This document shows, one piece after another, positions 39,081 through 55,098 of a stretch of DNA of 64,000 nucleotides (positions are counted from its first letter, which is position 1; the number at the start of each line of letters is the position of its first letter). The stretch is taken from contig NC_007778.1 in the NCBI RefSeq assembly GCF_000013365.1, forward strand, positions 3,720,001-3,784,000, in the 5' to 3' direction. The notes under the pieces were generated by a model. The model was not told the DNA's origin. It made no database searches and saw only the letters and a list, made by a program, of their open reading frames with translations. Position numbers and translations under genes: made by a program. The DNA is from Rhodopseudomonas palustris HaA2 (GTDB lineage Bacteria; Pseudomonadota; Alphaproteobacteria; Rhizobiales; Xanthobacteraceae).

Positions 39081-39617
39081 TCAGAGATGCATCACGCCGA
39101 GACCGATCCGCTCGTGGTTGGTCTCGGGCAGAAACGCCGATTCTCCATAGGCGGCTACGACCACCCAATGCCCGTCGGCGATGATGACGACCTTCACCTT
39201 CAGGCTGCTGTCGCCGGGAACGGTGGGAATCAGTCCGCTCAGCGCCTCGAGACCGGCGTGGATCAGCGCGTGCGTGGCTCCGGATCGATCCTCGATGGTG
39301 CCGTGTTTCAGCGCCGCATTGAGAATGCTGCGTGGAAACGTCTTGTTGATCTCGGTCTTGCGACCGCTCACCCAGGTCACCGAGAACTTGTAGTTCGTCT
39401 CTTTCGATATTTTCGCCTTGAAGCTGGCTTCCTCTTCTTCAGAGGTCATCGCGAGCATAATCGCCACCTTGCCGATCCGATCGGCACTGAGCTCCAATTG
39501 CAACGGCTTGTTCCTTTGTATCGTGGCGTACAATTCGGCGCGAACCTGACACCGGGCCGGACCGCCGTCAAGTAAGTACGAGCGGTCCGCGCACGGCAGA
39601 AACGCCGTGACACACAC
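39081..39617 (-). CDS. hypothetical protein
   Basis: 178-aa open frame that I do not recognise. It starts at GTG 39617 without a clear ribosome site, so the true N-terminus could be shorter. The composition is mixed (SEEEEASFKAKISKETNYKFSVTWVSGRKTEINKTFP, KVKVVIIADGHWVVVAAYGES), compatible with a small soluble alpha/beta domain. No membrane helix or motif is visible. It sits alone between cobQ and bioY in the opposite direction to cobQ. Codon use looks like genuine coding sequence. Confidence 0.5.
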   Translation of the reverse strand: MCVTAFLPCADRSYLLDGGPARCQVRAELYATIQRNKPLQLELSADRIGKVAIMLAMTSEEEEASFKAKISKETNYKFSVTWVSGRKTEINKTFPRSILNAALKHGTIEDRSGATHALIHAGLEALSGLIPTVPGDSSLKVKVVIIADGHWVVVAAYGESAFLPETNHERIGLGVMHL

Positions 39618-39756: not shown

Positions 39757-40335
39757 TCAGAGCCTCGGCAAAGTCAGCATCGCCTCGACCCGCTGCACGA
39801 TCAGGACGGTGAGCACGGCCTTGATCAGATCGCCCGGCAAGAACGCCAGCGAGCCCAACATCACCGTCGCGACGTTGATGTGACTGACCGCTGCGAGCCA
39901 CAGAATGCCGCCGAGGTGAAGAACGATGATCCCTCCGAAGATCGTCGCCGCCAGATAGGCGATCCCGCGCCACAATGGCCGCTGCAACGCCTCGGCACGC
40001 ATCGCCAGGAAGCCGACGGCATAGGCCGCCGGCGCCCAGGCGAGCAGATAGCCGACGGTGGGACCGGCGAACACCGCCAGTCCGCCGCGACCGCCGGCCA
40101 GGACCGGCAGGCCCGCAGCGACCAGCGCCAGCACCGTGAGGCAGGCGAGCGCCCCGCGTTTCGGCCCGAACATCAGACCGACCAACATCACGCCCAACGA
40201 CTGCAGCGTGATCGGCACCGGCAACACGCCGACGACGATCGGCGGAATGGCTCCGAGCGCCATGATCAGGCCGGCGCCGAGGCCGACCAGGGCGAGATCG
40301 CGGGTGCCGAAACGCGCGGCGGATTGTGACATCAT
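39757..40335 (-). CDS. bioY: biotin ECF transporter S component BioY
   Basis: 192-aa membrane protein with about six helices, the substrate-binding S component for biotin. The family block GAIPPIVVGVLPVPITLQSLGVMLVGLMFGPKRGAL and GRGGLAVFAGPTVGYLLAW are clear. The ATG at 40335 overlaps the bioN stop by 4 bp. Last gene of bioM-bioN-bioY, directly downstream of the biotin-dependent malonate decarboxylase genes. Confidence 0.95.
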   Translation of the reverse strand: MMSQSAARFGTRDLALVGLGAGLIMALGAIPPIVVGVLPVPITLQSLGVMLVGLMFGPKRGALACLTVLALVAAGLPVLAGGRGGLAVFAGPTVGYLLAWAPAAYAVGFLAMRAEALQRPLWRGIAYLAATIFGGIIVLHLGGILWLAAVSHINVATVMLGSLAFLPGDLIKAVLTVLIVQRVEAMLTLPRL

Positions 40336-41081
40336 GGTGCAGTGTCTCCTCTCTTGCCGCCCCCGACCTCGAGAGCCGAAACGTCGTAGGGCACGGCGCC
40401 ACACGCGCGACGCGCTGCGCGACGCTGCGCACGGCTCTCGGCCGACGCCGCCACGGCCACCGGCTGCCGGCCTTGACGCGGCGGCGGACCACGCAGGTCG
40501 ATCGCGTCGGCCAGATCCTGCGCGCGCAGGATGATCTTGACGACCAGCGGCACCGCCAGCGCGACGATCGAACGATCCAGTCCCCGCACCCGCTGGGCCT
40601 CACGGATCGCGGCGATTTCGTCCAGGATCAGCGGCACGAACCGGATCGCCAGGGTCAGCGTCAAGCCGGCCCGCTCGGCATCGAGCAGCCCGATCCATTG
40701 CAGCGGACGCAGCGCCGTTTCGATCGCGGCCGTCATCGCCGGCACCGTCGAACTCGTCGTTACCGCCTGGGCAAATCCGATCAGGATCATCAGTCGCGTG
40801 GTGACGGCGGCGGCGGACGCGAGACCATGGCTCCAGTAGTCGAACAGTCCGATGCATCCGACGATGATCGTCGTCCCCTTGAGCCCCGCCCACAGCGCGC
40901 GGGGCGAGGCGCCGGTCAGCATCAACGCGCAGGCGGCCGAAGCGACGCCGCACGCCAGCATCCACGGTCTGTCGATGAAGGCGACGCTTGCACCCAGGAG
41001 TGCGAGCAACGCGAGCTTCCAGCCGACCGGAACGGCGACGAGCGGCGCCGAGGCGCCCCAGCGTCGCACAGCACCGATCAT
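40332..41081 (-). CDS. bioN: biotin transporter transmembrane component BioN (EcfT)
   Basis: 249-aa EcfT-type membrane protein that couples the ATPase to BioY. Helices lie in the N-terminal 110 residues, and the cytoplasmic coupling helices carry the Ala-Arg-Gly type motifs AQRVRGLD and ADAIDLRG. ATG 41081 overlaps the bioM stop (ATGA); GTG 41087 is the alternative. It is longer at the C-terminus than many EcfT proteins, with an Arg/Ala-rich tail. Confidence 0.92.
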   Translation of the reverse strand: MIGAVRRWGASAPLVAVPVGWKLALLALLGASVAFIDRPWMLACGVASAACALMLTGASPRALWAGLKGTTIIVGCIGLFDYWSHGLASAAAVTTRLMILIGFAQAVTTSSTVPAMTAAIETALRPLQWIGLLDAERAGLTLTLAIRFVPLILDEIAAIREAQRVRGLDRSIVALAVPLVVKIILRAQDLADAIDLRGPPPRQGRQPVAVAASAESRAQRRAARRACGAVPYDVSALEVGGGKRGDTAP

Positions 41082-41848
41082 CGGCACAGCTCCCGGTAGC
41101 GCGCGATGGCCTCCGCCGGCGCCGCATCGACGACGACGCGCCCGGACTCGATCACCAGCACGCGGTCGAAATCCTCGACCAATTCAAGATCGTGGGTCGC
41201 GACGATCGCCTGTTCTGACATCCCGGCCAGCAGCCTGCGAAACCGATTGCGGTTGGCGAGATCGAGCTGCGACGTCGGCTCGTCGAACAGGATAGTCGGC
41301 GGTTCGCGCGTCAGCACGCCGGCCAAGGCGACGAGTTGCCGCTCGCCGCCCGACAATTCATGAACCCTTCGCGCCGCCAGATCGCCGATGCCGAGCCGGT
41401 CCAGACTAGCCGCGATCCGCGCGGACACCATCTGACGCGACAGGCCCCTCGCCTTCAGGCCGAAGGCGAGATCTTCGTGGACGATCGGATACACGATCTG
41501 GTTGTCGGGCGTCTGGAACAGAAAGCCCATGCGGTCGCGCACCGCGACGCAGTCGTGATGCGGATCGAGGCCACCGACCGTTACCCGCCCCTGCGACGGA
41601 GCGATCAGTCCGATCATCATCCGCAGCAATGTCGACTTGCCGGATCCGTTTTGCCCGAGGATGCCGATCCGGGCCTCGTCGATGCGAAAATCGACTCGGC
41701 GAAGAACCTCGCGCCCGTCGCGAGCCAAACGCACGTCGGAGAACACGATCGCCTGGGCGCCCGGCGTCGTCGACATCGGGGCTCGCCGCGCGAGCGCGTC
41801 CGCGCCAGATCGACCGACCTCGCAGTGAGCCGTTGAAGTGATACCCAT
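41078..41848 (-). CDS. bioM: biotin transporter ATPase BioM (EcfA)
   Basis: 256-aa ABC ATPase with Walker A GQNGSGKST (65-73), Q-loop FLFQTPDNQIV (a typical ECF ATPase form), signature LSGGERQ, Walker B TILFDEPTSQLD and the H-loop ATHDLE. ATG 41848 has GAGG six bases upstream; ATG 41776 is the alternative. It is 101 bp downstream of madM on the same strand with a hairpin between, so it may be partly cotranscribed with the malonate decarboxylase genes whose BCCP needs biotin. Confidence 0.93.
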   Translation of the reverse strand: MGITSTAHCEVGRSGADALARRAPMSTTPGAQAIVFSDVRLARDGREVLRRVDFRIDEARIGILGQNGSGKSTLLRMMIGLIAPSQGRVTVGGLDPHHDCVAVRDRMGFLFQTPDNQIVYPIVHEDLAFGLKARGLSRQMVSARIAASLDRLGIGDLAARRVHELSGGERQLVALAGVLTREPPTILFDEPTSQLDLANRNRFRRLLAGMSEQAIVATHDLELVEDFDRVLVIESGRVVVDAAPAEAIARYRELCR

Positions 41849-41899
41849 GGCAACCTCAAGAGCAGCGACGGCTTTCGCCGCAAGTCCTACTGGGCGAAC

Positions 41900-41926
41900 G
41901 GCCGCGGCGAACGCATCGCCACGGCC
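41900..41926 (-). terminator. hairpin between madM and bioM
   Basis: On the minus strand GGCCGTGGCG and CGCCGCGGCC pair over 10 bp (one G-U) around a 7-base loop, 24 bp past the madM stop. No U tract follows, so it may be a weak terminator or an mRNA processing/stability structure separating mad and bio segments. Confidence 0.4.
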
Positions 41927-41949
41927 GATCTTGTCGTCAGTACGTCAGA

Positions 41950-42714
41950 TCAGCCGAAGATGGCCTTCATGACGAGGTAGAGGATCGATGGACACACCAG
42001 GCAGCCGAAGCCGGTGTAGAACGTCGCCGTCAAGGCACCGTAGGGCACCAGGCGAACGTCGGTGGCGGCCAGACCCGCGGCGGTGCCGCTGGTGGTGCCC
42101 ATCAGACCGCCATAGACCATCGCGGCGGCCGGATTGGTCAGGCCGAACGGCTTGGCCAGGAACGGCGTCAGGATCATCACCGCGATCGACTTGACGACCC
42201 CGGCGGCGATCGACAGCGCGATCACATCCGAGGTCGCGCCGAGCGCCGAACCGGTCACCGGGCCGACGATGAAGGTCACCGAGCCGGCACCGATCGTGGT
42301 GAGCGAGACGGTGTCACGATAGCCGAACGCATAGGCGACGCCGACACCGACGATGAACGCCAGCACGGTGCCGATGACCAGCGCCAGAACGCCGCCGAGG
42401 CCGGCCTTCTTCAGCTCTTCGAGGCGCACGCCGAAGGCGGTCGACACGATGCAGAAGTCGCGCAGCATCGCGCCGCCCATCAGGGCGAAGCCGGCGAACA
42501 CCGAGATGTCGGCGATGCCCCTCTTGCCGCCGGTGCTGATGCCGCCGTAATAGGCCAGCGCCAGACCGATGATGATCGCCACCGCCGAACCGTGGATGCG
42601 GTTCTTGGTGACGTGTTTGGAGAACGCGTAGCACAGCCAGGTCAGCAGGCCGACCAGAACGAAGGCGAAGATCAGCTGACGCGGGCCGATCAGGTCATTG
42701 ATGAAATGTGTCAT
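41950..42714 (-). CDS. madM: malonate transporter subunit MadM
   Basis: 254-aa inner-membrane protein with about eight helices, the large subunit of the two-protein MadL/MadM malonate importer. Recognised stretches are YYGGISTGGKRGIADISVFAGFALMGGAMLRDFCIVSTAFG and GPVTGSALGATSDVIALSIAAGVVKS. ATG 42714 has AGGAG eight bases upstream. It is the last mad gene, 14 bp after madL. Confidence 0.94.
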   Translation of the reverse strand: MTHFINDLIGPRQLIFAFVLVGLLTWLCYAFSKHVTKNRIHGSAVAIIIGLALAYYGGISTGGKRGIADISVFAGFALMGGAMLRDFCIVSTAFGVRLEELKKAGLGGVLALVIGTVLAFIVGVGVAYAFGYRDTVSLTTIGAGSVTFIVGPVTGSALGATSDVIALSIAAGVVKSIAVMILTPFLAKPFGLTNPAAAMVYGGLMGTTSGTAAGLAATDVRLVPYGALTATFYTGFGCLVCPSILYLVMKAIFG

Positions 42715-42728
42715 GTCATTGCTCCTGA

Positions 42729-43154
42729 TCAAGCTGCCTTAGCGGGCTTTGCTGCCGATTCCGTCGGCGCGGCGGCTTCATCGCCGAACGACGATGTCTT
42801 CGATCCGGCGAGGATCGACAGCGGCCGGATCAACGCGAAGCAGATCACGACCGACGCCAATCCAGCGATGAACGCGATCCATCCACCCGACATCGCCGCG
42901 GCGACGTTCTGAGTGGCGGCCATTGCGATCACGACCGGAATGTACATTGCGTTCCAGAACATGATGCCGTCTTCCGACGCCTTCGGAAACCAGCCCATCT
43001 TCTTGAACCAGGGCGTCGTGAACACCAGCAACAGCATGGCGAAACCGACACCGCCGATATCCCCGGGAATGCCCAGCGCCAAGCCGAGGCCGAGGCCTAT
43101 CGACGTGCCGATGAACATGCAGAGACCGAGGACCATCACACCATAGATGACCAT
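42729..43154 (-). CDS. madL: malonate transporter subunit MadL
   Basis: 141-aa inner-membrane protein with about four helices (VIYGVMVLGLCMFIGTSIGLGLGLALG, FWNAMYIPVVIAMAATQNVAAAMSGG). It is the small partner of MadM in Na+-coupled malonate uptake in Malonomonas-type clusters. The C-terminus is a polar Ala/Lys tail. A 168-bp spacer without a gene separates it from madF upstream. Confidence 0.93.
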   Translation of the reverse strand: MVIYGVMVLGLCMFIGTSIGLGLGLALGIPGDIGGVGFAMLLLVFTTPWFKKMGWFPKASEDGIMFWNAMYIPVVIAMAATQNVAAAMSGGWIAFIAGLASVVICFALIRPLSILAGSKTSSFGDEAAAPTESAAKPAKAA

Positions 43155-43322
43155 TTCAATTACTCCCCCACACTGAGTGCGGCCGATCGAGCCAGTGCGT
43201 CGGTCACGATCTCAGGTTAAGCTTCAGCATTCACGCGCGAGCCAACTCGTGCGTGTCGGATGGAACGTATTGCTGCCGAGGCGGCGGCCTGCGCGATGCA
43301 GACCGACGCCCCGGCAGTTCGC

Positions 43323-43532
43323 TTACTCGACGACGACGATCAGGGCGCCGGGTTTAACCCTGTCACCGACGGCGACTGCGATCGATTTGACGGTGCCGTC
43401 GATCGGACAGACCAACGGGCTCTTCATCTTCATGGCTTCCAACACCGCGACGGGCGTACCCGACTTGATCACGTCGCCGACGGCGACTGCGATCGACTCG
43501 ACCTTGCTCGGCATTTTCGCTTTCAGATCCAT
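43323..43532 (-). CDS. madF: biotin carboxyl carrier protein MadF of malonate decarboxylase
   Basis: 69-aa protein that is nothing but a biotinyl domain: the biotin Lys35 is in VLEAMKMKSP and the hairpin halves flank it. It carries the carboxyl group from the MadC/MadD transferase to the membrane decarboxylase MadB. It is unusually short, without the Pro/Ala linker common in other BCCPs. The two halves are nearly repeated (VESIAVAVGDVIKSG and VKSIAVAVGDRVKPG). ATG 43532 has AGGAG eight bases upstream. Confidence 0.94.
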   Translation of the reverse strand: MDLKAKMPSKVESIAVAVGDVIKSGTPVAVLEAMKMKSPLVCPIDGTVKSIAVAVGDRVKPGALIVVVE

Positions 43533-43533
43533 T

Positions 43534-44268
43534 TCAATTCTCCTCAGTGGTGATGAGCTCGTCCGATCTGAACGAGCATTCGGATTGGTCCAGGGCGCGC
43601 ATGACGGTCGCCTTGTCCAGCAGATGGACGCCATCGATGCCGCGGCCGAGGACCGTGGCTGTTGACGACATCAGTTCGTCGAGCTTGATGCCGAGACCAT
43701 TCGGCAACGTCACTTCGACGTCGAACTTGCGACCGTGTTCGATGCGCAGGTGTGCGACACCGGCGTGCAGAGATCGAAGCGCGGCGCAATTTCTCGGGCG
43801 CACGACAGCGTCGACGTCCGAAGTCGATTCCAGATAAGGCAGCCCTGTCAGCACCTGCAGCGCGGCCGAGCCGAACAGGCCGACCACGATGCCGAGCGAG
43901 TCGCACAGCCCGCGTAGCGCCAGCAGCGCGGCGGCCGCCTCGAAGCGCGCCGGCCGCAACCGCGCCGCCACGTCGTAGGGCGAATGCGCCCGACCGATGC
44001 GGCTCGGCGGCAATGCGAACGACGCACGGACCCGCACGCCGTCGTAGCGGAACGGAAACGACACACCGAGCTGGACGTAGCCGTCCGGCAACGGCCCCTT
44101 CGGCGCACAGACGATGCCGGGTATCGCCTCGGCGGCGAACGTCCGGTGCACCATCGCTTCGAGGTCCGGCAGCCTGAACGGCGCGGGCAATCCGCGACAG
44201 ACGGTCTCGGCGGAACGAAGTCGTTCCTCGACCGAGAACTCCACCATGGTATGTCGTCGTCCCAACAT
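43534..44268 (-). CDS. madK: phosphoribosyl-dephospho-CoA (holo-ACP) transferase MadK
   Basis: 244-aa MdcG/MadK-like nucleotidyltransferase that attaches 2'-(5''-triphosphoribosyl)-3'-dephospho-CoA to the serine of the ACP MadE. The polymerase-beta-type site is GSAALQ...TSDVDAVV (Gly-Ser and two Asp) around residues 130-155. ATG 44268 has GAGGACG just upstream; the frame continues to a TTG at 44334. It ends 1 bp before the madF start. Confidence 0.85.
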   Translation of the reverse strand: MLGRRHTMVEFSVEERLRSAETVCRGLPAPFRLPDLEAMVHRTFAAEAIPGIVCAPKGPLPDGYVQLGVSFPFRYDGVRVRASFALPPSRIGRAHSPYDVAARLRPARFEAAAALLALRGLCDSLGIVVGLFGSAALQVLTGLPYLESTSDVDAVVRPRNCAALRSLHAGVAHLRIEHGRKFDVEVTLPNGLGIKLDELMSSTATVLGRGIDGVHLLDKATVMRALDQSECSFRSDELITTEEN

Positions 44269-44335
44269 CGTCCTCAACTCCGTCGCGATCGTCACAGCGA
44301 CCGCGCATGAACCGGCTCCTCGCCGGCCGCTCAAC

Positions 44336-45433
44336 TCAGCGCTTCTTGGCCCAGACCGGATCGGTCTTGGAGGTCGACTGGACGTCCAGCTGGGCTTTGA
44401 CCAGATCGTCGAAGGCCTGCGTCTTCACAGGGCCGGTGATACGTAGTCGTACGGGGTCGATCGTCTCGGCACCGGCTCCGGGCACCAGGCGCAGCTCAGT
44501 GGCATCGCACGAGGTCTGAAGATTCCGTGAAACTCTCACCACGCGGCTCTTGATACGAAGAATGGTGCGCGCGGCACGCTCGATAGTCTCGTGCGAGGCG
44601 ACGGGCGTCTTCTCGACGACGATTTCGTATTCCGGATAGGTGCGTCGTCGACGATAGGTGATGATCTTCCCCGCCGGATCGCAGACGTGGCCCGTTTCGG
44701 AGATCGGGAAACTGTCGCCCATCGGCAGCCCGCCGACCACCAATTCGCAAAACCCCTCGCCCGCCGGCGACGGCACCAACGACAGGTCGTCGCGCATCGG
44801 CTTGCCGTCGAGCGTCAGCCAGCCGAATTCCTGGCAGCCGTAGAGATCGTGGACTTGGTAGTTCTGCACGGCGACCTCGGCGATCAGCTCGAGATCGAGC
44901 GGCGTGCCGGCCACCACGATCCGACAGCTCGGCGGCAGATCGGCGGCGAGGCCGAGTTGCTTGGCCTCGGCAAGGCTCGCGCGAATGAACGACGACTCGC
45001 CGAGCACGATCTGCGGACGCTCGCGACAGAACGCGGTGATGAAAGCCGCCCGGCTCGAGCGCTCGAGGAAGAACCATTCGATGCCGCAGCGATCGAGGGC
45101 TTCTTTCGAAAACACGTTCACCAGCGGTGGATAGGTCACGAACATCCGGTCGCCCGGTTTCGCGCCGATCGCCGCCATCACCCGACGCGTCGCTTCGCAA
45201 CGCGCCTCGATCTCGCTGTGTGCGACGCCGACGATGTTCTGGAACGCGGACGATCCGGTCGTGAACGTCACGTAAGCGAGGTTGAAGGGGGTGTGGATTT
45301 CTTCGATCACGTGCGCCGCTGTCGGACCGGAGATGCCTTTCGCCGTGAGGTTGCGGCGGGGCATTTCGGCAAGTGTCGGCGCCGTGCTGAAGCTGTCAGC
45401 CGCGGCTTCGTAGCGATCAAGTGCGTCGGACAT
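44336..45433 (-). CDS. madH: acetate:ACP-SH ligase MadH
   Basis: 365-aa protein of the MadH type, distantly like AMP-forming ligases (TFTTGSSAFQNIVG, VVAGTPLDLELIAEVA, LYGCQEFGWLTLDG). In the Malonomonas system it acetylates the thiol of MadE's prosthetic group with acetate and ATP, making the active acetyl-ACP that exchanges acetyl for malonyl. ATG 45433 (MSDALDRY) has GGGGGAG upstream; the frame extends to 45460 over the madD end. Confidence 0.88.
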   Translation of the reverse strand: MSDALDRYEAAADSFSTAPTLAEMPRRNLTAKGISGPTAAHVIEEIHTPFNLAYVTFTTGSSAFQNIVGVAHSEIEARCEATRRVMAAIGAKPGDRMFVTYPPLVNVFSKEALDRCGIEWFFLERSSRAAFITAFCRERPQIVLGESSFIRASLAEAKQLGLAADLPPSCRIVVAGTPLDLELIAEVAVQNYQVHDLYGCQEFGWLTLDGKPMRDDLSLVPSPAGEGFCELVVGGLPMGDSFPISETGHVCDPAGKIITYRRRRTYPEYEIVVEKTPVASHETIERAARTILRIKSRVVRVSRNLQTSCDATELRLVPGAGAETIDPVRLRITGPVKTQAFDDLVKAQLDVQSTSKTDPVWAKKR

Positions 45434-45456
45434 GAAACCCACTCCCCCTTCAGCTC

Positions 45457-46341
45457 TCAATTCGCCTGCGGCCGGAAACGGGCCTGCACCGCTGCGAATT
45501 CAGCGTTGAGACGCTCCAGCACGTGCGGGCGAACCTTGCGCCCGCCGCGCTCGACGCCGAGCTTTCCGCGACCACGCGGACCGACCACGTCGAGCCCCGC
45601 TGCCTTGGCTCGACGTATCTCGTCGACATGCTTGATGATGGCCGCTCGCATCGCCGGAATTTCGGACACGAGCTCCTCGACGCCGCCGAGCTGATGGAAG
45701 AACGACGGGCCGGCTGCGAACACCGGGTTGCTCTTGGCCAGTTCCTCGAGCGTCTCGATGTCCTTCTTGATGATCCTTGAAACCGACGTGATCGGCATGA
45801 CGTGGATCATGGTCTGGAATTTCGCGTCCAGCGACAGGATGCGATCGGCCTGCAACCCATGGCAGAGGAAGGCCCCGGAGATCGCGCGACCGATCACCAT
45901 GGCGACGATCGGGTGACCGGCGAGACGCGCTTCGGCCAGCGCCAGTTGATACGCACCGGTCGCCTTGTTCATGCCGAAGATCTCTTCGACCTTGCCGGGA
46001 CCGTTGCCGGGCGTGTCGACGATCAGCACGATCGCACGCTTGTCGGCGAGGCGCTTGTCGGCATCGGCCGCGAGGGTGGCATAGACGGCCTGCGCCATCT
46101 TGTAGCCCTCCTCCATCCCGATGATCCCCGAATACACCACCGGGAATTTCTCGTTGAAGGCTTCCGCATCCGACGCGATCACCGTGACCAGTTCGCCGTC
46201 GAGCTTGGCTTCACCGACCACCGCGCCGGGGCCGAAGGTCGGATCGCCGAACGTCGTGGCGCCGACCTTGTCCTGCGCGAAGCTTTCCGGATCGACGATC
46301 AGATCGACCGCCTCCCGGCCTTTTCCTAACAGAGTGTCCAT
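45457..46341 (-). CDS. madD: malonate decarboxylase carboxyltransferase subunit MadD
   Basis: 294-aa crotonase-fold carboxyltransferase half (gamma-like), pairing with MadC. Blocks KRAIVLIVDTPGNGPGKVEEIFGMNKATGAYQLALAEARLAGHPIVAMVIGRAISGAFLCHG lie in order and hold the oxyanion region. Together with MadC it moves the carboxyl of malonyl-ACP to biotin on MadF, leaving acetyl-ACP. AGGAGA precedes the ATG. Confidence 0.93.
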   Translation of the reverse strand: MDTLLGKGREAVDLIVDPESFAQDKVGATTFGDPTFGPGAVVGEAKLDGELVTVIASDAEAFNEKFPVVYSGIIGMEEGYKMAQAVYATLAADADKRLADKRAIVLIVDTPGNGPGKVEEIFGMNKATGAYQLALAEARLAGHPIVAMVIGRAISGAFLCHGLQADRILSLDAKFQTMIHVMPITSVSRIIKKDIETLEELAKSNPVFAAGPSFFHQLGGVEELVSEIPAMRAAIIKHVDEIRRAKAAGLDVVGPRGRGKLGVERGGRKVRPHVLERLNAEFAAVQARFRPQAN

Positions 46342-46354
46342 GTTCGTCTCCTAA

Positions 46355-47311
46355 TCACAGAACCAGGCGTTGCACGGTCTTGCGGAAGTCCGCGAGGGGA
46401 CCATCGGCGAGACCGACGGGATCGTTGTTGCCGGCGTATCGCCAGACGTCGCGGGAATCGGTCGGGGCGATCTCGACGGCGAGCGCGACGCCGCGCAGTT
46501 GCTTCTCGACGAGCGCCTCCGAACCGATGCGGCGCATCGGCTCGAACTCCTCGATCGTCAGCTCGGTCAGTTCGGTGAGCTGGGCGCGGAACGCCGCGAC
46601 GGTGTCGTCGACCAGGAAGTTGCAGTCGCCCATCACGTATTTGTGGCGGCCGCCGGTGGTGCGATAGACCAGCGCGCGGTTCGAACTGTCGAACTCGTCC
46701 TTGCCCATCTCCTGCTCGATCACTTCAGGACCGGTCAGGCCGAGACGGCCGAATTCGCTCATGATGATCGCGTCGGTCGAGGCGGCGACGAAACCCATGC
46801 CGCCGAAGCATCCGATCCGCGACCCGATCAGCGAGACGATCGGCACCTTGTGTCGGGCACGCTGAATCGCGTCCATCACTTCGGCGTGGGCCAGGAGACC
46901 GGCATTGGCTTCGTGCAGCCGCACGCCGCCGGTTTCGAACGAGATCGCCACGATCGGCCGCTGCGACGCCGGCAGCCGCGGGAATTCGGCGATCAGCGCG
47001 TCGTAGAAATCGATCGCCTGATCGATCGTACCGACCATCTTGGCGCCGCTGACTTCGCCGACGGAGCCGCCGATGAAGCGGCCTTCCTGCGAGATCACGA
47101 ACACCGGACGTTCGCCGATCCGACCGACGCCGGTGACGATGCCGTCGTCGAATTCGACGGCCTCGCCGAGCGTGATCAGATGCGGGCTGCAGAACCGGTC
47201 GATCGGGCCGACCAGTTCGACGAAGCTACCTTCGTCGACCAGTCCGAGCGCACGCTCGCGCGCATTGCTCTCGAAGAAGGAGCTGGTTTGTATCTTGTTC
47301 CAGTTGGGCAT
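46355..47311 (-). CDS. madC: malonate decarboxylase carboxyltransferase subunit MadC
   Basis: 318-aa carboxyltransferase half (beta-like, AccD/MdcD fold). Blocks include GIVTGVGRIGERPVFVISQEGRFIGGSVGEVSGAKMVG, SFETGGVRLHEANAGLLAH and SLIGSRIGCFGGMGFVAASTDAIIMSEFGRLGLTGPEVIE. ATG 47311 (MPNWNKIQ) has GAGGAT seven bases upstream. It sits between madE and madD with 13-16 bp gaps. Confidence 0.94.
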   Translation of the reverse strand: MPNWNKIQTSSFFESNARERALGLVDEGSFVELVGPIDRFCSPHLITLGEAVEFDDGIVTGVGRIGERPVFVISQEGRFIGGSVGEVSGAKMVGTIDQAIDFYDALIAEFPRLPASQRPIVAISFETGGVRLHEANAGLLAHAEVMDAIQRARHKVPIVSLIGSRIGCFGGMGFVAASTDAIIMSEFGRLGLTGPEVIEQEMGKDEFDSSNRALVYRTTGGRHKYVMGDCNFLVDDTVAAFRAQLTELTELTIEEFEPMRRIGSEALVEKQLRGVALAVEIAPTDSRDVWRYAGNNDPVGLADGPLADFRKTVQRLVL

Positions 47312-47327
47312 GATTGATCCTCGTTGC

Positions 47328-47642
47328 TCAGGCCGACGCTTCAGCAAGCGCCTGACGCAGCCGCAGAGCGACCACGGCCGGCGAGGCGTTGTTGTCGTTG
47401 ATCTCGACCAGCGCGTCGGTCAGACCGGTCTCGTTGGCGAAATGCGTGAGCACCCGCCGCCACAAATCCTCGAAGCCTTTCACCGGCGTCACGATGCGCA
47501 CCTGCAGTTTGCCGGACTTGCCGATCGGCGAGACCAGCACCTCGAGGTCGCCGGAGCCGACGACGCCGTGGTGGACGGGCGCGGCGACGCGCCGTGGCGT
47601 GCCCGTGCTGTTGAGTTCGAATTCGATCGTTTGAAGAGCCAT
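47328..47642 (-). CDS. madE: malonate decarboxylase acyl carrier protein MadE
   Basis: 104-aa MdcC/MadE-type acyl carrier protein. Its prosthetic group is not 4'-phosphopantetheine but 2'-(5''-phosphoribosyl)-3'-dephospho-CoA, attached to Ser30 in VVGSGDLEVLV. GGGGGAAG precedes the ATG. The larger open frame up to 47867 is a shadow of madA. Confidence 0.93.
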   Translation of the reverse strand: MALQTIEFELNSTGTPRRVAAPVHHGVVGSGDLEVLVSPIGKSGKLQVRIVTPVKGFEDLWRRVLTHFANETGLTDALVEINDNNASPAVVALRLRQALAEASA

Positions 47643-47655
47643 GTCTTCCCCCTGA

Positions 47656-49320
47656 TCACCAGTTGCGGAAACGAGTCGGCGGGTTGTAGAGCCCACCGGA
47701 AATGTCGACGAGGTCGCGCATCGAGCGCGCGGCCAAGAGGTCGCGGTTGGCGCGCGAACGATCGATGCCGAGGTCTTCCGGCGTCTGGAAGATCTTGGCT
47801 TCGCGCAGCCTCTTGGTTTCCGCCGGGTCTTCCGCGAGGCCGATCTCGGTGTAGCCGGCGACGGCACGGATCGCGGCCATGCGGACGTCCATGTTCGGCG
47901 CGCGGTTCAGGTACGCGATGCCGTCTTCGGTGATGATGTGGGTGACGTCGTCGCCGTAGATCATCACCGGCGGCAGATCGAGCTTGGCGTTCTCGGCCAG
48001 CTTCCAGGCGTCGAGCTTGTCGACGAAGCTCGGCGCGCGGGCTTCACCGAAGGTCTCCACCCCCTGCACCACCAGGCGCTTGCCGCGCGGCATGTCGCCG
48101 ATCAGGTCGTGCATGTTCGGCACTTCCTGGCCGCACTTCAGCCAGCTGTCGGTGACGTGACGACGACCTTTGGAGTCGCAGCCCATGTTCGGCGCTCCGC
48201 CGAAGCCGGCGACGCGGTTGGCCGTGGCCGTCGAGGAGTTGCCGAACTTGTCGATCTGCAGCGTGCCGCCGATGAACATGTCGAGCGCGTAGTGACCGGC
48301 GGTCTGCGCGAAAGCGCGGTTGGAACGCAGAGATCCGTCGGGGCCGGTGAAGAACACGTCGGAGCGGGCGCGGACGTACTCTTCCATGCCGAGCTCACCG
48401 CCGAAGCAGTGAATGGTGTCGACCCAGCCGGCCTCGATCGCGGGGATCATGGTCGGGTGCGGGTTCAGCACCATGTGGGTGCAGCATTCCCCCTTCAGCC
48501 CAAGTTCCTCACCATAGGTCGGCAGAATCAGTTCGATCGCCGAGGTGAGAAAGCCGATGCCGTGGTTGAGGCGCTTGACCTTGTACTCGCCGTAGATGCC
48601 CTTCAGCGCCATCATGGCCAGCAGAATGTGGTTGTCGGTCACCAGCCCCGGATCGCGCGTGAACAGCGGCTCGATGAAGAACGGCTTCGGGCTCTCGATG
48701 ACGGCGTCGACCCAGCCGGCCGGAATATCGACGCGCGGCAGCTTGTCGACGATCTTGTTGACCTGGGCGATCACGATGCCCTGGCGGAACTTGGTCGCCT
48801 CGACGATCACCGGCGTGTCTTCGGTGTTGAAGCCGGTGTAGAGATTGCCCTCACGATCGGCCTCGTAGGCGCAGATCAGCGACACCCGCGGCGTCAGATC
48901 GAGGAAGTAGCGGCCGAACAGTTCGAGATAGGTGTGAATTGCGCCCAGCTCGATCTTGCCCTCGCGGATGAACTTGGCGACCCGCGCGGCCTGCGGCCCT
49001 CCGAACGCGAAGTCCAGACGCTTGGCGATCCCCTTCTCGAACATGTCCAGATGCGAGGCCAGCGGCACGCAGGACTGCACCATGTGCAGATTGTTGATCT
49101 CGGCCGGATCGACCTGCAGCAGACAGTCGGCGAGGAAATCCGCCTGCTTCTGATTGTTGCCCTCGATGTTGACGCGATCGAAGGAGCGGATCACCGACTT
49201 CAGCAGCGCGACGGTGTCTTCCTTCTTCACCTGCTTGCCGGGGCCGATGTAGCGCGCCGCGGCCTCCATTCGCTGGCGTGTATCCGATGCCAGCGTGTCC
49301 CATTTGCGTTCGGTCTTCAT
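47656..49320 (-). CDS. madA: malonate decarboxylase alpha subunit, acetyl-ACP:malonate ACP transferase MadA
   Basis: 554-aa MdcA/MadA protein of the CoA-transferase fold, exchanging acetyl-ACP and malonate to give malonyl-ACP plus acetate. Family blocks include KRLDFAFGGPQAARVAKFIREGKIELG, NTEDTPVIVEATKFRQGIVIAQVN, NGxxxF-like ITEDGIAYLNRAPNMDVRMAAIRAVAGY. Length matches family members (about 550). Its ATG region is overlapped by the birA stop (4 bp). Confidence 0.95.
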   Translation of the reverse strand: MKTERKWDTLASDTRQRMEAAARYIGPGKQVKKEDTVALLKSVIRSFDRVNIEGNNQKQADFLADCLLQVDPAEINNLHMVQSCVPLASHLDMFEKGIAKRLDFAFGGPQAARVAKFIREGKIELGAIHTYLELFGRYFLDLTPRVSLICAYEADREGNLYTGFNTEDTPVIVEATKFRQGIVIAQVNKIVDKLPRVDIPAGWVDAVIESPKPFFIEPLFTRDPGLVTDNHILLAMMALKGIYGEYKVKRLNHGIGFLTSAIELILPTYGEELGLKGECCTHMVLNPHPTMIPAIEAGWVDTIHCFGGELGMEEYVRARSDVFFTGPDGSLRSNRAFAQTAGHYALDMFIGGTLQIDKFGNSSTATANRVAGFGGAPNMGCDSKGRRHVTDSWLKCGQEVPNMHDLIGDMPRGKRLVVQGVETFGEARAPSFVDKLDAWKLAENAKLDLPPVMIYGDDVTHIITEDGIAYLNRAPNMDVRMAAIRAVAGYTEIGLAEDPAETKRLREAKIFQTPEDLGIDRSRANRDLLAARSMRDLVDISGGLYNPPTRFRNW

Positions 49321-50180
49321 GAGCTTACACCCGTGTGCTTCGTGGAGATGTAGTCGGGCCCCCGGCCAACGGAGATGCCCGTGGCGATTTCGCCGGAGTG
49401 AACGAGGCGGGTGACGCCCGTCTCGTCTAGAATTCGAAGAGCGCCATCGTCGGCGAGGCCGATCAGTCGTGCCGTGACGGGTTCGTCACCGTCGGTGACG
49501 CGAACCATTTGGCCGAGATGTTCGGCGTGCCGGGTCCAGGTGCCGGCGAACGACGCGACACCGTCGCGTTCCCACAGCGGCAGCCACACCCCGAGCGACT
49601 CCAGGAAGCCTCTCAGCAGTCCGATCGGATCGATCGGCCGACCCGCCAGCGCCGCGAGCGACGCTGCAGAACGACGTAGCTCTTCGGGAAACTCCGCCTG
49701 CGCGATCGCGACGTTCAGGCCAAAGCCGAGCACGACGAAGTCGAGCTCGCCCGCGCCGTCGGTGTGCGCTTCGGCCAGGATGCCGCAGATCTTGCGGCCG
49801 TCGACCAACAGGTCGTTCGGCCATTTGATGCCGGCGGCAACGCCGGTGTGGGCCGCGATCGCTTCCCACAGCGCGACGGCGCCGAGCAGGGCCAATTGCG
49901 GCGCCTCCTCGATCGGCCGCGCGGTGCGGATCAGTGTCGAGACACACAGACTTCCCGACGGCTGGGAAAACCAGGCGCGGCTGCCCTTGCCGCGGCCGCG
50001 GGTCTGATGATCGGCGACGAGGACGGTGCCGTGGTCGGCGCCGGCCTTGCCGAGATCGATCAGAGCCCGATTGGTGCTGTCGATCTCGGCGACGTGGAGA
50101 ACGGTCCGCCCGATGCCATCGGCCTGCTCGACCGCAGCGAGGCGCTTTGCGTTCGGGATGATGTCAGCGAAGCGGACCAT
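49317..50180 (-). CDS. birA: biotin-protein ligase inside the malonate decarboxylase cluster
   Basis: 287-aa ligase of the short type without a DNA-binding N-terminus. The biotinyl-AMP loop is RGRGKGSRAW (61-70), followed by KWPNDLLVDGRKICGILAE (119-137) and a C-terminal SH3-like domain. It would biotinylate MadF. It lies between madB and madA with a 4-bp overlap to madA, a location not in the 14-gene Malonomonas rubra order as I recall it. Whether it is the cell's only ligase cannot be told from this window. Confidence 0.92.
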   Translation of the reverse strand: MVRFADIIPNAKRLAAVEQADGIGRTVLHVAEIDSTNRALIDLGKAGADHGTVLVADHQTRGRGKGSRAWFSQPSGSLCVSTLIRTARPIEEAPQLALLGAVALWEAIAAHTGVAAGIKWPNDLLVDGRKICGILAEAHTDGAGELDFVVLGFGLNVAIAQAEFPEELRRSAASLAALAGRPIDPIGLLRGFLESLGVWLPLWERDGVASFAGTWTRHAEHLGQMVRVTDGDEPVTARLIGLADDGALRILDETGVTRLVHSGEIATGISVGRGPDYISTKHTGVSS

Positions 50181-50208
50181 GATCGTTCTCCAGCTTTCCC
50201 GATGCGGC

Positions 50209-51423
50209 TCAGTGCGGTGCCACGAGGGAGATCGTCGAGGCGAAGATGCCGACCGCGATGGCGGAGACGATCACGCCGCAGATGTTGGCGCCCATCGCCA
50301 CCGGGAAGATCATCGCGTAGGGATTGTCCTCGGCGGCGATCTTCTGAGCGAGCTTGGCGGTCGTCGGGATGCAGGACACGCCGGCGATGCCGATCAGCGG
50401 ATTGAAGGCCTTCTTGCTGATCAGATAGACGAACCAGCCGCCGATCAGACCACCGACACCGGAGATCAGCAGCGCGGTGATGCCGAGCACCAGCAGGATC
50501 AGCACGCGGCTGTCGAGCAGCGTCGAGGCTTCGCACAGCACGCCGAGCACCAGGCCGAGCATCAGCGTCGACATGTAGGTGACGGTCTTCTCGAGCAGAT
50601 CCTGGTAGACTTCGATCTGGGCTTCCTTGATGGCGACGCCGAGGAAGAACGACAGGATCAGCGGCGACGCGACGGGCAGCAGGAGGCAGAGCAGCGCGGC
50701 GGCGACGATGGTGAAGACGAACTTCGCCTTCTGCGAGACGTCCGGGAATTCCATCTCGACGTCCATGGCCCGATACTTCTTCGGCACCAGGAGCTTCATC
50801 AGATACGGATAACCCGCATAGGTCAGCGACAGATAGAGGTAGGCGATGATCGAGATCGGGACGAACAGGTCCTTGGCCAGCATCAGCGAGGTGAACAGCA
50901 CCATCGGGCCGTCGGCGCCGCCGATCGTTCCGACTGCGGCCGCCTCACCCGGCGTCAGACCGCAATAGTAGCCGATCACCAGCGTTGCGAAGGTTCCCAT
51001 TTCGGCGAAGATCGCGCAGGTGATCACCGCCCAGGGACGGGCGAGAATGAAGGAGATGTCCGACATCGAGCCGATGCCGAAGAACAGCATGCAGGCGACC
51101 AGCGAGTTCGAGAACGCGAAGTTGTAAACCGGCTGCAGGAAGTAGATCTGCATCTCGTTGACGAGCTTGATCGGGTCCGAGATCATCGGATCGAGCATCA
51201 GGGTGCCGATGTGATTGCCCTCGAGGAACATCACGCCGGCATTGACGCACATCATCGCAACGCCCATCGGCACCATGATCAGCGGCTCCAGCGTGCGCTT
51301 GAAGCCGAGATAGGCGAGAAAGAATCCGCCGACGATCAGGAAGAGCCTTGCGAAGGCGATTGACGGCTCCTGCACGAACATCGTGCCGATGCCGGGAAAG
51401 ACCGTGAAGAGTTGCTGTAGCAT
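50209..51423 (-). CDS. madB: membrane carboxybiotin decarboxylase MadB (Na+-pump type)
   Basis: 404-aa polytopic membrane protein of the OadB/MmdB/GcdB beta-subunit family, which decarboxylates carboxybiotin and exports Na+. The conserved AAAVGTIGGADGPMVL block carries Asp171, aligned with the ion-coupling Asp of OadB (Asp203 in that protein). The SNSLVACMLFFGIGSMSDISFILARP region and the C-terminal NPYAMIFPVAMGANICGVIVSAI also match. Na+ rather than H+ coupling is inferred from family knowledge. Confidence 0.93.
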   Translation of the reverse strand: MLQQLFTVFPGIGTMFVQEPSIAFARLFLIVGGFFLAYLGFKRTLEPLIMVPMGVAMMCVNAGVMFLEGNHIGTLMLDPMISDPIKLVNEMQIYFLQPVYNFAFSNSLVACMLFFGIGSMSDISFILARPWAVITCAIFAEMGTFATLVIGYYCGLTPGEAAAVGTIGGADGPMVLFTSLMLAKDLFVPISIIAYLYLSLTYAGYPYLMKLLVPKKYRAMDVEMEFPDVSQKAKFVFTIVAAALLCLLLPVASPLILSFFLGVAIKEAQIEVYQDLLEKTVTYMSTLMLGLVLGVLCEASTLLDSRVLILLVLGITALLISGVGGLIGGWFVYLISKKAFNPLIGIAGVSCIPTTAKLAQKIAAEDNPYAMIFPVAMGANICGVIVSAIAVGIFASTISLVAPH

Positions 51424-51444
51424 CTGAGGTTGTCCCGTATTCGA

Positions 51445-51570
51445 TCAGGCGGTTTCGGAAGATTCGTTTTCGCCGAGCAACTTGCTGAGCAGAACGATGA
51501 CGCCGATCACGGCGTATGAGATTGTCGCTGTGAGCGCGTAGGCCATCAGCGCGTAGACGATGATGTTCAT
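51445..51570 (-). CDS. 41-residue single-helix membrane peptide between madG and madB
   Basis: Starts at ATG 51570, overlapping the madG stop by 4 bp (ATGA), with GGAG seven bases upstream. The sequence is a membrane helix (about 4-34, IIVYALMAYALTATISYAVIGVIVLLSKLL) with a short acidic tail. It is far shorter than OadG gamma subunits but shares their plan of one N-terminal helix and a polar C-terminus. It may stabilise MadB or be the counterpart of the small Malonomonas proteins encoded upstream of madG. Function unproven. Confidence 0.7.
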   Translation of the reverse strand: MNIIVYALMAYALTATISYAVIGVIVLLSKLLGENESSETA

Positions 51571-52529
51571 GGGTGGTCTCCTGTGGCGTGAAGCGTTTCG
51601 AATCCGGCCGTCGCCGACGACGGAAACGTTCGGTGTTCGATGAGGTGGACGGCGATGGTGACAGCGAGCAGATCGGCGGCGCCGCCGGCGCTGATCCGGC
51701 GCGCGACGCATTCCGCGCCGAAGGCGTGGATCGCTTCGACGCCGCGCGACGTCAGCCCGCCGCCGAGGTCGCGAATGCGCCGGGCTTCGCCCTGGACGAA
51801 AGCCAGTGCGTCGGGACCACCGCGCCAGAGCACGGTGGAATCCTCGGCTTCGGCGATCAGCTCGATCAGGGTGTGAACCAGCGCGCGGTTCAGTCCGTGC
51901 CCGGCGGCGATGGCGGCGCGCAGCGTCGGCAGACCGTGCCGCGCGACCGCCGGGAAGCCGTCCTCGACCTCGCCGCGAATGCCCCGCGTGCCGTGCCGCG
52001 CGTAGAGTTTCTCGCCGGCCGTCACGGGATCGGTCCGCCGATCGATCAGCTCGCGCTGAACCATCCCGCTGGTGATCGCTGCGACCTCGGCGAAGATCCG
52101 GTGTGCGCTCGGCGCCGCATCGTCACGCGCGGCGCGTCCTGCGGCGGCGGCGGTGACACCGAGCGCGAACAGTGCGCCGCGTTGGGTGTTCACGCCGTTC
52201 GACGCCGCCATCAACAGTGCGTCGTACTCGCGGCCGACCGCGCGTACCAGCGGCAGCGCACTGACGGCATCGCCGCGATGGCTGAAGCCGATCGACGCGC
52301 AGCGGTGGAAGCACGGCGCGATGGCAGCCGACGTCAGCATGAACGTCTGCTGATCCATGTCGGTGTGCGCACCCATCGAACGCGGCGTCACCAGACCCGG
52401 CTTCGGATGAGTTGCTACTTCGAGGAGAATGCCGCTGAGACAGGCCGACCCTATCGTCCAAGCCTTCGGAGCCAATCCGTCGGCGAAATAGGGCGCGATA
52501 TCCGCGGCGTGAAATGGTGAACAGTCCAT
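51567..52529 (-). CDS. madG: triphosphoribosyl-dephospho-CoA synthase MadG (MdcB/CitG family)
   Basis: 320-aa helical enzyme that makes the ACP prosthetic-group precursor from ATP and dephospho-CoA. The family markers EVATHPKPGLVTPRSMGAHTDMD (KPGLV-x-DH-like metal/ATP site), GVNTQRGALFALG and a C-terminal AADLLAVTIAVHLIE are present. It is the first gene of the mad cluster; 475 bp upstream lies the divergent oxidoreductase. Confidence 0.92.
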   Translation of the reverse strand: MDCSPFHAADIAPYFADGLAPKAWTIGSACLSGILLEVATHPKPGLVTPRSMGAHTDMDQQTFMLTSAAIAPCFHRCASIGFSHRGDAVSALPLVRAVGREYDALLMAASNGVNTQRGALFALGVTAAAAGRAARDDAAPSAHRIFAEVAAITSGMVQRELIDRRTDPVTAGEKLYARHGTRGIRGEVEDGFPAVARHGLPTLRAAIAAGHGLNRALVHTLIELIAEAEDSTVLWRGGPDALAFVQGEARRIRDLGGGLTSRGVEAIHAFGAECVARRISAGGAADLLAVTIAVHLIEHRTFPSSATAGFETLHATGDHP

Positions 52530-53004
52530 GACGACGATCCGGACGACCGGGCGTTTCGGAGGCGCAAGCCTCGAGAAACATCCGTTCGCAGCACGTTGCC
52601 TGGAGCGGCACGTGCCTTCAGCAGAACGCCATCACGGGTTCGAAGTCACTTGGCGGGGCTTCCCGACTACGCCCCATTCGTTGGAAAGGCGAGCCGGAGA
52701 AGAGACGATGTGGTCGATCACGAAGCTCTCTGAGCTGATCTCCTCGACCGAGACAATCAGCGTGAAACTGCTATGTCACCGGCGTTCGACAGGGTCAACG
52801 CTACTTTGGCCTCATCCGCAATCATACGGAGGTCGCGCCGATACAACCCGGAGAATGAGCCGGACGACCGACGCAATCGTCCGAAACGGGTTCGCGCGCG
52901 ATGCCGGACTCGCACGGATAGCAGCCGATCGCGCGCGCCTCATCGCGGGCTCCCACGTCTCCCGCTCGATTGCGGATCGGCGCGGCGACGACTAGGTTGG
53001 CGCG
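52530..53004. promoter_or_regulatory. 475-bp divergent intergenic region upstream of the mad cluster
   Basis: No supported gene is seen here and no regulator gene (such as the LysR-type madN of Malonomonas) adjoins the cluster. The mad promoter on the minus strand and the oxidoreductase promoter on the plus strand should lie within. A small GAGGC-GCAA-GCCTC hairpin is at 52559-52572. No clear -35/-10 pair or strong operator palindrome stood out. Confidence 0.4.
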
Positions 53005-55098
53005 ATGAACCAGACACGCGCGAACATCACGATCGGCAGAACGGTTTGTCCGCACGACTGCCCCTCGGCGTGCGCACTCGACGTCGAACTGCTCGATGAC
53101 GACCGCATCGGGCGCATCCGCGGCGCCCGCGACAACTCCTACACGCTCGGCGTGATCTGCGAGAAAGTCGCGCGCTACGCCGAGCGCTTTCATCATCCAG
53201 ACCGTCTGCTACATCCCCTGAAACGCCGCGGTCCCAAGGGGACCGGCGATTTCGTACGCATTTCCTGGGAGGAAGCGCTCGATCTCACCGCGACGGCATT
53301 CACGACGGCCGAGCGGGACCACGGCGCCGAAAGCGTCTGGCCGTTCTACTTCGCCGGCACGATGGGCCTCGTCATGCGCGACGGAATCGAACGGCTGCGC
53401 AATGCCAAGGGCTATTCCGGCATGTACGCCACCTATTGCACGCCGTTGTCGTGGGCGGGTTACTACGCGGGCGTCGGCCGGCTGACAGGGGTCGACCCGC
53501 GCGAGATGAGGCACTCGGACCTGATCGTGGTCTGGGGCGGCAATCCGGTGAACACGCAGGTCAACGTGATGACGCATGTGGGCATCGCCCGCAAGACTCG
53601 CGGCGCCAAGCTCGCCTGCGTCGACGTCTACGACACCGGCACCATGAAGCAGGCCGATATCAAGCTGCTGATCCGGCCGGGCACCGATGGTGCGCTGGCC
53701 TGCGCGGTGATGCACGTACTGTTTCGCGACGGCTACGCGGATCGCGAATATCTGCATCGGTACACCGATTGCCCGGATGCGTTCGAGCGCCACCTCGACG
53801 ACAAGACGCCGCAATGGGCGTCGCGCATCTGCGATATCCCGGCGACCGAGATCGAGGCTTTCGCGGCGCTCATCGGCGCCACACCCCGCAGCTTCTTCCG
53901 GATCGGTTACGGCTTCACCCGCTCGCGCAACGGTGCCGTGAACATTCATGCGGTGAGTTCGATTCCGGCCGTCACCGGTGCATGGCGCCACCAAGGCGGC
54001 GGCGCGCTGCATACCAACAGCGGCCTCTACAAATGGGACAAGACCTTGATCGAGGGTCGCGACGCCGGCGTCGCGCCGGCCCGGATGCTCGATCAATCAC
54101 GGATCGGCGCGGTTCTGCTGGGCGATCCACACGACCTCCAGGGCGGCCCGCCGGTCAAGGCGATGCTGATCCAGAACACCAACCCCGCATCGGTGGCGCC
54201 CGATCAGACCAGCGTGAAACGCGGACTGGCGCGTGACGACCTGTTTGTCTGCGTGCACGAACAGTTCATGACCGAAACCGCGCGCTATGCCGATGTCGTT
54301 TTGCCGGCGACGATGTTCCTCGAGCACGACGACGTCTATCAGGGAGGCGGCCACCAGCACATCCTGCTCGGCCGCCGGCTGGTCCCGCCAGCCGGCGAGT
54401 GCCGCAGCAATCACGAGGTGATCAGCGCCATCGCCGATCGTGTCGGCGCGACGCATCGCGGATTCGCGATGACTCCGCGCGACATCATCGAGGCGACGCT
54501 CGCGGCGTCACACCGGCCGGGGCTCGATCGGCTGGAGGTCGACGGCTGGCTCGACGTTCAGACCGACTTCGCGACGGCGCACAACCTCGATGGGTTCGGC
54601 CATCCCGACGGCAAGTATCACTTCAAGCCGGATTGGCAGCAGACCGCCGCCTATCTCGGAACCCGCACGCTCGGTCCGTGGGAGGCCCTGCCCCCGTTTC
54701 CGGATCATTGCTCGCTGATCGAAGACGCCACCGACGAATATCCGTTCCGCCTCGCCACCAGTCCGGCCCGCACCTTCCTCAATTCGACGTTCAACGAGAC
54801 GGCAACGAGCAAGACGCGCGAGGGCCGCCCCACCGTGATGGTGCATCCCGCCGATCTCACCGCCCTCGGCCTGACCTCCGGAGACAAGGTGAAGCTCGGA
54901 AGCGCGCGCGGCGAGGTCACGCTGCATTGCCGGGCCAACGAGGGCCAGCGCCGCGGCGTGCTGATCGCCGAATCGATCTGGCCCAACGACGCCCACGAGG
55001 ACGGGTGCGGCATCAACACCCTGACCGGCGCCGACCAGTCGGCCCCGGCCGGCGGCGGCAGTTTCCACGACAACCGGGTGTGGATCAGGAAGGCTTGA
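53005..55098 (+). CDS. molybdopterin-dependent oxidoreductase (formate dehydrogenase/DMSO reductase family)
   Basis: 697-aa member of the Mo/W-bis-MGD family. An N-terminal [4Fe-4S] site Cys15, Cys19, Cys23 and Cys52 (CPHDCPSAC ... GVICEK) precedes the cofactor-binding domains (VVWGGNPVNTQVN; NTNPASVAP) and the C-terminal MGD-dinucleotide domain (RTFLNSTFNETATSK, VMVHPADLTALGLTSGDKVKL). No Tat signal, so it is likely cytoplasmic. No small Fe-S or membrane subunit lies next to it, and the substrate is unknown. It converges with the RND gene with a 14-bp overlap. Confidence 0.88.
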   Translation: MNQTRANITIGRTVCPHDCPSACALDVELLDDDRIGRIRGARDNSYTLGVICEKVARYAERFHHPDRLLHPLKRRGPKGTGDFVRISWEEALDLTATAFTTAERDHGAESVWPFYFAGTMGLVMRDGIERLRNAKGYSGMYATYCTPLSWAGYYAGVGRLTGVDPREMRHSDLIVVWGGNPVNTQVNVMTHVGIARKTRGAKLACVDVYDTGTMKQADIKLLIRPGTDGALACAVMHVLFRDGYADREYLHRYTDCPDAFERHLDDKTPQWASRICDIPATEIEAFAALIGATPRSFFRIGYGFTRSRNGAVNIHAVSSIPAVTGAWRHQGGGALHTNSGLYKWDKTLIEGRDAGVAPARMLDQSRIGAVLLGDPHDLQGGPPVKAMLIQNTNPASVAPDQTSVKRGLARDDLFVCVHEQFMTETARYADVVLPATMFLEHDDVYQGGGHQHILLGRRLVPPAGECRSNHEVISAIADRVGATHRGFAMTPRDIIEATLAASHRPGLDRLEVDGWLDVQTDFATAHNLDGFGHPDGKYHFKPDWQQTAAYLGTRTLGPWEALPPFPDHCSLIEDATDEYPFRLATSPARTFLNSTFNETATSKTREGRPTVMVHPADLTALGLTSGDKVKLGSARGEVTLHCRANEGQRRGVLIAESIWPNDAHEDGCGINTLTGADQSAPAGGGSFHDNRVWIRKA

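Follow-up and report, generated by a model that had tools for sequence, protein, structure and literature searches.

In the 64,000-nucleotide stretch of Rhodopseudomonas palustris HaA2 analyzed here (“the window”; NC_007778.1, positions 3,720,001 to 3,784,000), a malonate decarboxylase (mad) operon on the minus strand is bordered by two elements overlooked in the first-pass annotation, whose range of 39757–52529 ends just short of both: a gene for a HutP-family RNA-binding protein beside bioY, and the operon leader (about 52530–52800) in front of madG. We read the whole as a biotin-dependent, Na+-pumping mad operon with an extra, dedicated biotin ligase and energy-coupling factor (ECF) biotin importer, probably controlled after transcription initiation by the adjacent HutP-family protein, and give this reading a probability of about two in three. 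The gene content, the linkage, the HutP fold with its histidine triad and the conserved leader stem-loop are all visible in the DNA sequence.

The hutP gene (39081–39617, minus strand; start codon uncertain) is predicted to encode an RNA-binding regulator: its domain, at about 39090–39476, matches PF09021 with an E-value of 1e-30, which places the protein in the HutP family and fold. Such a gene adjoins mad in all nine mad clusters that we collected, in five different arrangements, and among 198 genomes of the same taxonomic family HutP occurs in exactly the four that have mad. The clusters are those of the window, its nearest relative (genome G825), Rhodoplanes tepidamans (G871), Rhodoplanes elegans (G900), Azospirillum sp. 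TSO35-2, Pseudovibrio flavus, an alphaproteobacterial metagenome-assembled genome (MAG), Rhodobacter capsulatus plasmid pRCB133 and a Klebsiella pneumoniae record; because the contig scan used two peptide patterns (5 loci returned), they are to be taken as a sample. MadB-like matches under the TIGR03136 cut-off and ten plasmid-collection records below 60% identity were not counted as mad, and the K. pneumoniae record was included in the cluster counts and excluded from the leader set. Counted in this way, mad is rare and sporadic, with MadB above the cut-off in 1/385 genomes of the class, 1/398 of the phylum, and 4/198 and 4/318 of the family; the larger family sample added no new cluster to the same four. 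Viral contigs scanned for HutP and MadB held no relative. The K. pneumoniae record (L062, 22518–22949), with its biotin-dependent mad cluster, is labelled a plasmid, yet is 5.37 Mb long, and its mad stretch had no near match in the E. coli genomes.

The protein differs from the Bacillus HutP, the antiterminator of the hut operon and a hexamer with ligand-activated RNA binding, in being linked to malonate genes and in its sequence. Against the NCBIfam model of the hut antiterminator (NF002838) it scores 38.5 bits, under the cut-off of 155. The histidine triad, which we take to be the metal-binding ligands of HutP, is present in all eight alphaproteobacterial HutPs and absent from that of Klebsiella. 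Arg88, in contrast, is replaced in 8/8, the neighboring segment is changed, and two segments are shorter; Arg88 and its segment presumably form the histidine pocket. It is improbable, in our view, that the mad-linked HutP still senses histidine, or that it is a degraded hut regulator that travelled with a horizontally transferred mad island. The sporadic distribution of mad, its plasmid location in R. capsulatus and the degenerate look of the Klebsiella HutP would all suit such an origin; the change at Arg88 does not, nor does the finding that the seven other alphaproteobacterial HutPs are 45–85% identical to that of the window while the position of the gene within the cluster shifts. The R. 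capsulatus and Klebsiella stretches also have no hut-gene annotation (their tables are incomplete, and hut genes were not sought in the remainder of the window).

The second element is a stem-loop in the leader (52627–52655, minus strand; CGCC-AA-GUGA-...-GUGA-U-GGCG), which is our candidate HutP site. It lies upstream of madG in 8/8 alphaproteobacterial leaders, with a stem of 3–5 bp, a loop of ~21–24 nt and G[U/C]GA-like motifs at ~8-nt steps within the loop, and its distance to the madG start is 95–108 nt in all eight (start codons chosen by eye). By the strict pattern, in which a final U is also allowed, six leaders have three motifs; over the nine loci its plus-strand occurrences fall in 6/8 leaders and at one other place, with two more on minus strands. 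All three motifs are GCGA in R. elegans and one of the three in R. tepidamans, as expected if a single protein reads every motif. A descriptor of the stem plus three motifs matches 5/8 leaders, with a rate of 0.022 per kb in shuffled sequence. In a covariance model (R1) search, the mad leader was the top match in each of seven alphaproteobacterial genomes and likewise on the plasmid of R. capsulatus, with E-values of 4e-8 to 4e-4 against 0.09 or weaker for the next match; the model had been trained on those same leaders, and scoring covered up to 150 candidates per genome. With each leader left out in turn, its nearest relatives being removed as well, the true site still came first in 6/8.

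The design of the element has a counterpart in histidine utilization. In a Peptoclostridium hut operon, TAG-N4-TAG-N4-TAG lies between hutP and hutH, immediately followed by a hairpin that resembles an intrinsic terminator; this fits the clusters of three NAG repeats that HutP binds according to a review (PMC7430163). The mad leaders have a comparable repeat design, paralleling UAG-N4-UAG-N4-UAG, with another motif.

Further features surround the stem-loop. A possible mad promoter, TTGACC-N17-CATAGC, was found by eye at 52770–52798 (minus strand), and TTGAC[A/C] with a 17-nt spacer was likewise seen by eye in 6/8 alphaproteobacterial leaders; we consider the proposal weak because a consensus scan of 52400–53010 returned no sigma-70 site. 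Between promoter and stem-loop, at 52707–52764 (minus strand), is a 5′ hairpin with the loop GGTCGA, complementary to a downstream TCGACC, making a possible pseudoknot. Similar hairpins stand at similar offsets in the five leaders examined for such complements, where the complementarity is kept while the letters differ (TGTGGCCG/CGGCCACA, CGTGGCCG/CGGCCACG), with mononucleotide-shuffle p values of 0.01 to 0.27 per leader; none was seen by eye in the other three alphaproteobacterial leaders. Finally, the third motif and the 3′ arm of the window's stem-loop can pair with the madG start region through 10 pairs and more. Over the eight leaders, the arm and start region of the same leader pair better than swapped combinations do (permutation p 0.005, and 0.003–0.006 for two sets of six).

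Several observations weigh against the stem-loop being a HutP site, or against the control we attach to it. In both the window and its nearest relative, G825, the middle motif is degenerate, leaving two clear ones in each, and the stem-plus-repeats descriptor also matches elsewhere, on the plus strand of 4/9 loci and twice on one minus strand. In the leave-one-out test, the R. capsulatus leader came second, the three best shown did not include that of Pseudovibrio, and that of R. elegans was first only narrowly (E 2.7 vs. 2.8). Covariation in the stem is weak, with one pair, and 33/500 shuffles reach the score. The motif was moreover first spotted by eye in the very leaders on which it was then tested, and no further mad cluster turned up for a blind test. 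Three NAG repeats at period 7, the classical identity of a HutP site, occur in 0/9 leaders (about 334 nt each), and we rejected that identity; the repeat is GUGA at a period of ~8 nt, a departure from Bacillus HutP. The comparison with hut is itself based on one operon, in whose 16.4-kb locus three-NAG period-7 runs occur 10 times. A further departure from the Bacillus system is that the consensus scan of 52400–53010, covering the window leader only, found no intrinsic terminator. The start-codon pairing is uneven, with shuffle p values from 0.002 to 0.49 per leader and a permutation p of 0.125 for a set of four leaders; the pairing arm ranks 2nd (tied best), 4th, 28th, 27th, 9th, 18th, 60th and 21st of 65 windows, and in no leader does it stand alone at the top. 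Lastly, the Klebsiella hutP, which lacks the histidine triad, has a LysR gene beside it, and its record has no leader match (best E 5.8, with stricter filters).

With these points in mind, an ordinary mad operon is the alternative that deserves most attention, although we regard it as unlikely. Here hutP would serve another function (acting in trans on some other RNA, for example), and the stem-loop would be bound by something else or be part of a malonate or biotin riboswitch. Five leaders do have an aptamer-like look, with their 5′ hairpin and possible pseudoknot. On the other hand, the window leader matches no Rfam family with an E-value of 1 or less, though a new riboswitch would give no match either, and both the number of repeats and their 4-nt spacers parallel the hut HutP site. 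The leader element and a triad-bearing HutP co-occur in 8/8 clusters, and in the single cluster lacking a leader match, HutP lacks the triad too.

We return to control by HutP, in which binding to the stem-loop, the identity of the effector, and both the direction and the level of control are our inference. The mad-linked HutP would take up a divalent metal on its conserved histidine triad together with a small effector. Our best guess for the latter is malonate, which could replace histidine as the metal chelator, a guess made because of the logic of the operon and the chelating chemistry of malonate. So loaded, HutP would grip the G[U/C]GA motifs in the stem-loop ~100 nt before madG, and binding would turn the mad operon on, either by freeing a translation start or by preventing attenuation. 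A translational output, through pairing of the start region with the third motif and 3′ arm, is tentative, because the arm ranks 18th to 60th in five leaders (2nd, 4th and 9th in three). Taken further, HutP could be a general RNA-binding fold switched by metal plus metabolite, rather than an antiterminator for histidine alone, of which a proteobacterial variant senses malonate on a histidine-held metal and turns mad on through GUGA motifs, possibly by freeing the madG start, in which case control would be at translation instead of at a terminator; we hold this broader proposal at somewhat less than even odds.

The enzyme that would be controlled in this way is better defined. The first-pass annotation's gene order, madG-madS-madB-birA-madA-madE-madC-madD-madH-madK-madF-madL-madM-bioM-bioN-bioY, is borne out by open frames, all on the minus strand, madS being our name for its small peptide. 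madB (50209–51423, minus strand) probably encodes the Na+-pumping carboxybiotin decarboxylase: it scores 797.9 bits against TIGR03136, “Na+-transporting malonate decarboxylase” (cut-off 596.9). In OadB, Na+ binding is lost with either of the exchanges D203A and S382A, whereas N412A has a milder effect (PMC7274780). Alignment with OadB, the check proposed at the outset for the Na+ site, sets Asp203, Ser382 and Asn412 against Asp171, Ser350 and Asn380 of MadB; Asp171 and Ser350 are invariant across the four family MadBs, and position 380 is serine in G825. The 69-residue MadF (43323–43532, minus strand) is a separate biotin carrier, matching Pfam Biotin_lipoyl and having the EAMKM motif. The initial assignment to the biotin-dependent Mad type is upheld by MadB and MadF, and the sequence supports a biotin-dependent malonate decarboxylase of the Na+-transporting family.

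The locus shares with the Malonomonas rubra Mad system the MadB equivalog family, a separate acyl carrier protein (ACP), the carboxyltransferase subunits, the biotin carrier and the MadLM transporter, and we take the M. rubra gene order to be that of the window's mad genes. The comparison is with the M. rubra system as generally described; the window adds birA, bioMNY and hutP, and its host is a Rhodopseudomonas-like alphaproteobacterium. Compared with the Mdc malonate decarboxylase, which is biotin-independent (PMC5534430), MadA, MadC, MadD, MadE, MadG and MadK match Mdc models, while MadB and the carrier MadF set the window apart. A close parallel in layout is pRCB133, where a single stretch likewise contains hutP, madG, madS, madB and birA together with bioMNY and the mad genes; it differs in being a plasmid and in having hutP upstream and codirectional. 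Between hutP and the mad leader of R. capsulatus, 171 bases are annotated as a small hypothetical protein (L061, 14425–14595). The mad locus is of a known kind; in the open-licence literature that we searched, no paper was found on a link between HutP and malonate or on the mad leader element.

MadB-like proteins with 50–54% identity, under the TIGR03136 cut-off, are encoded at L054 (4946–6121), L055 (3696–4856) and L053 (12598–13788), those of L054 and L055 beside weak madC-like (carboxyltransferase) and madF-like (biotin-carrier) matches. Searched with the window proteins, these three loci gave no hutP, madA or madE match; they perhaps encode another Na+-pumping decarboxylase. Matches of similar score occur in other families of the phylum.

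Directly before madB, between it and madG, all nine clusters have a hydrophobic protein of 37–41 residues, for which we coin the name madS (51445–51570, minus strand, 41 residues in the window). It was detected by tblastn in eight clusters and by reading the madG–madB gap in Klebsiella, and it matches no Pfam or NCBIfam family. By eye, it may form a single membrane helix. The OadG and delta subunits of other decarboxylase Na+ pumps are likewise short hydrophobic proteins encoded beside the beta subunit, in comparison with which MadS is almost tail-less; it is our candidate for the missing small, gamma/delta-like subunit of the malonate pump.

The other distinctive part of the operon is its biotin supply. 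The biotin protein ligase gene birA (49317–50180, minus strand) scores 156.6 bits against TIGR00121 (cut-off 83.1); the Pfam domains of its product are the biotin protein ligase (BPL) family and BPL_C only, with no DNA-binding domain matched. The importer genes are bioM for the ECF ATPase (41078–41848; ABC_tran, PF00005), bioN for the T component (40332–41087; CbiQ, PF02361) and bioY for the biotin S component (39757–40404; PF02632), all on the minus strand, so that BioY has its A and T units alongside, as in an ECF biotin importer. The best NCBIfam match of BioM is ECF_ATPase_1, under the cut-off (183.1 of 315). Within the stretches examined, birA is present in 7/9 clusters, being absent from the MAG and Klebsiella, and bioMNY in 5/9 (the window, G825, Azospirillum, Pseudovibrio and R. 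capsulatus). The claim that every supply step for biotin is added at the locus thus holds for the window and is not general. Elsewhere in the same genome there are also another BPL-family match, which follows frames that by eye look like nuo genes, and a second BioY (G000:C1:3434460–3434885), so the mad-linked biotin supply is an extra one. By presence rather than orthology, 11/15 other sampled Rhodopseudomonas genomes have one BioY and the other four none.

Could birA and bioMNY stand beside mad by chance in this strain? The clusters lacking one or both would be in keeping with this, yet the linkage recurs across genera and on pRCB133, in the same order in Azospirillum, Pseudovibrio, R. capsulatus and G825, and the genome of the window has its separate BPL match and BioY besides. 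With birA in 7/9 clusters and bioMNY in 5/9, the linkage is no accident of one strain, and we rejected chance clustering as highly improbable. The window was scanned for BioR-like boxes, using what we take to be the consensus (TTATNNATAA, at most one mismatch); none was found, against 1.24 expected.

The remaining mad genes are likewise all on the minus strand. madG (51567–52529) encodes a triphosphoribosyl-dephospho-CoA synthase (TIGR03132, 326.7 bits, cut-off 282.35), madA (47656–49320) the malonate decarboxylase alpha subunit, an ACP transferase (TIGR01110), madE (47328–47642) the malonate ACP (TIGR03130), madC (46355–47347) and madD (45457–46341) the carboxyltransferase subunits (TIGR03133 and TIGR03134), and madK (43534–44334) a holo-ACP synthase of the MdcG type (TIGR03135), each above its cut-off. 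Transport is assigned to madL (42729–43154; malonate transporter, PF03817, TIGR00807) and madM (41950–42732; malonate/Na+ symporter, PF03818, TIGR00808). madH (44336–45460) is a candidate acetate:ACP ligase, given its weak match to the AMP-binding Pfam family (27.0 bits, under the cut-off of 29.9) and its conserved position, identical in 9/9 clusters with a partial gene in one; a MadH-like frame occurs in 7/8 other clusters with 57–85% identity over at least 97% of its length, that of the Klebsiella record being partial. Divergent from madG is a molybdopterin oxidoreductase gene (53005–55098), which also adjoins madG in G825 (82.5% identity).

The recurrent biotin-supply bundle is a variant of the known mad locus, in which genes that supply a cofactor repeatedly accompany the enzyme that depends on it. 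The literature that we found associates HutP with histidine use; if our reading is right, the protein would have a second, metabolically unrelated partner. With its metal ligands kept, its ligand pocket changed, and its RNA site changed yet equally repetitive, it would represent an effector and target switch of a ligand-switched RNA-binding protein, and malonate sensing would gain a mechanism at the level of RNA.

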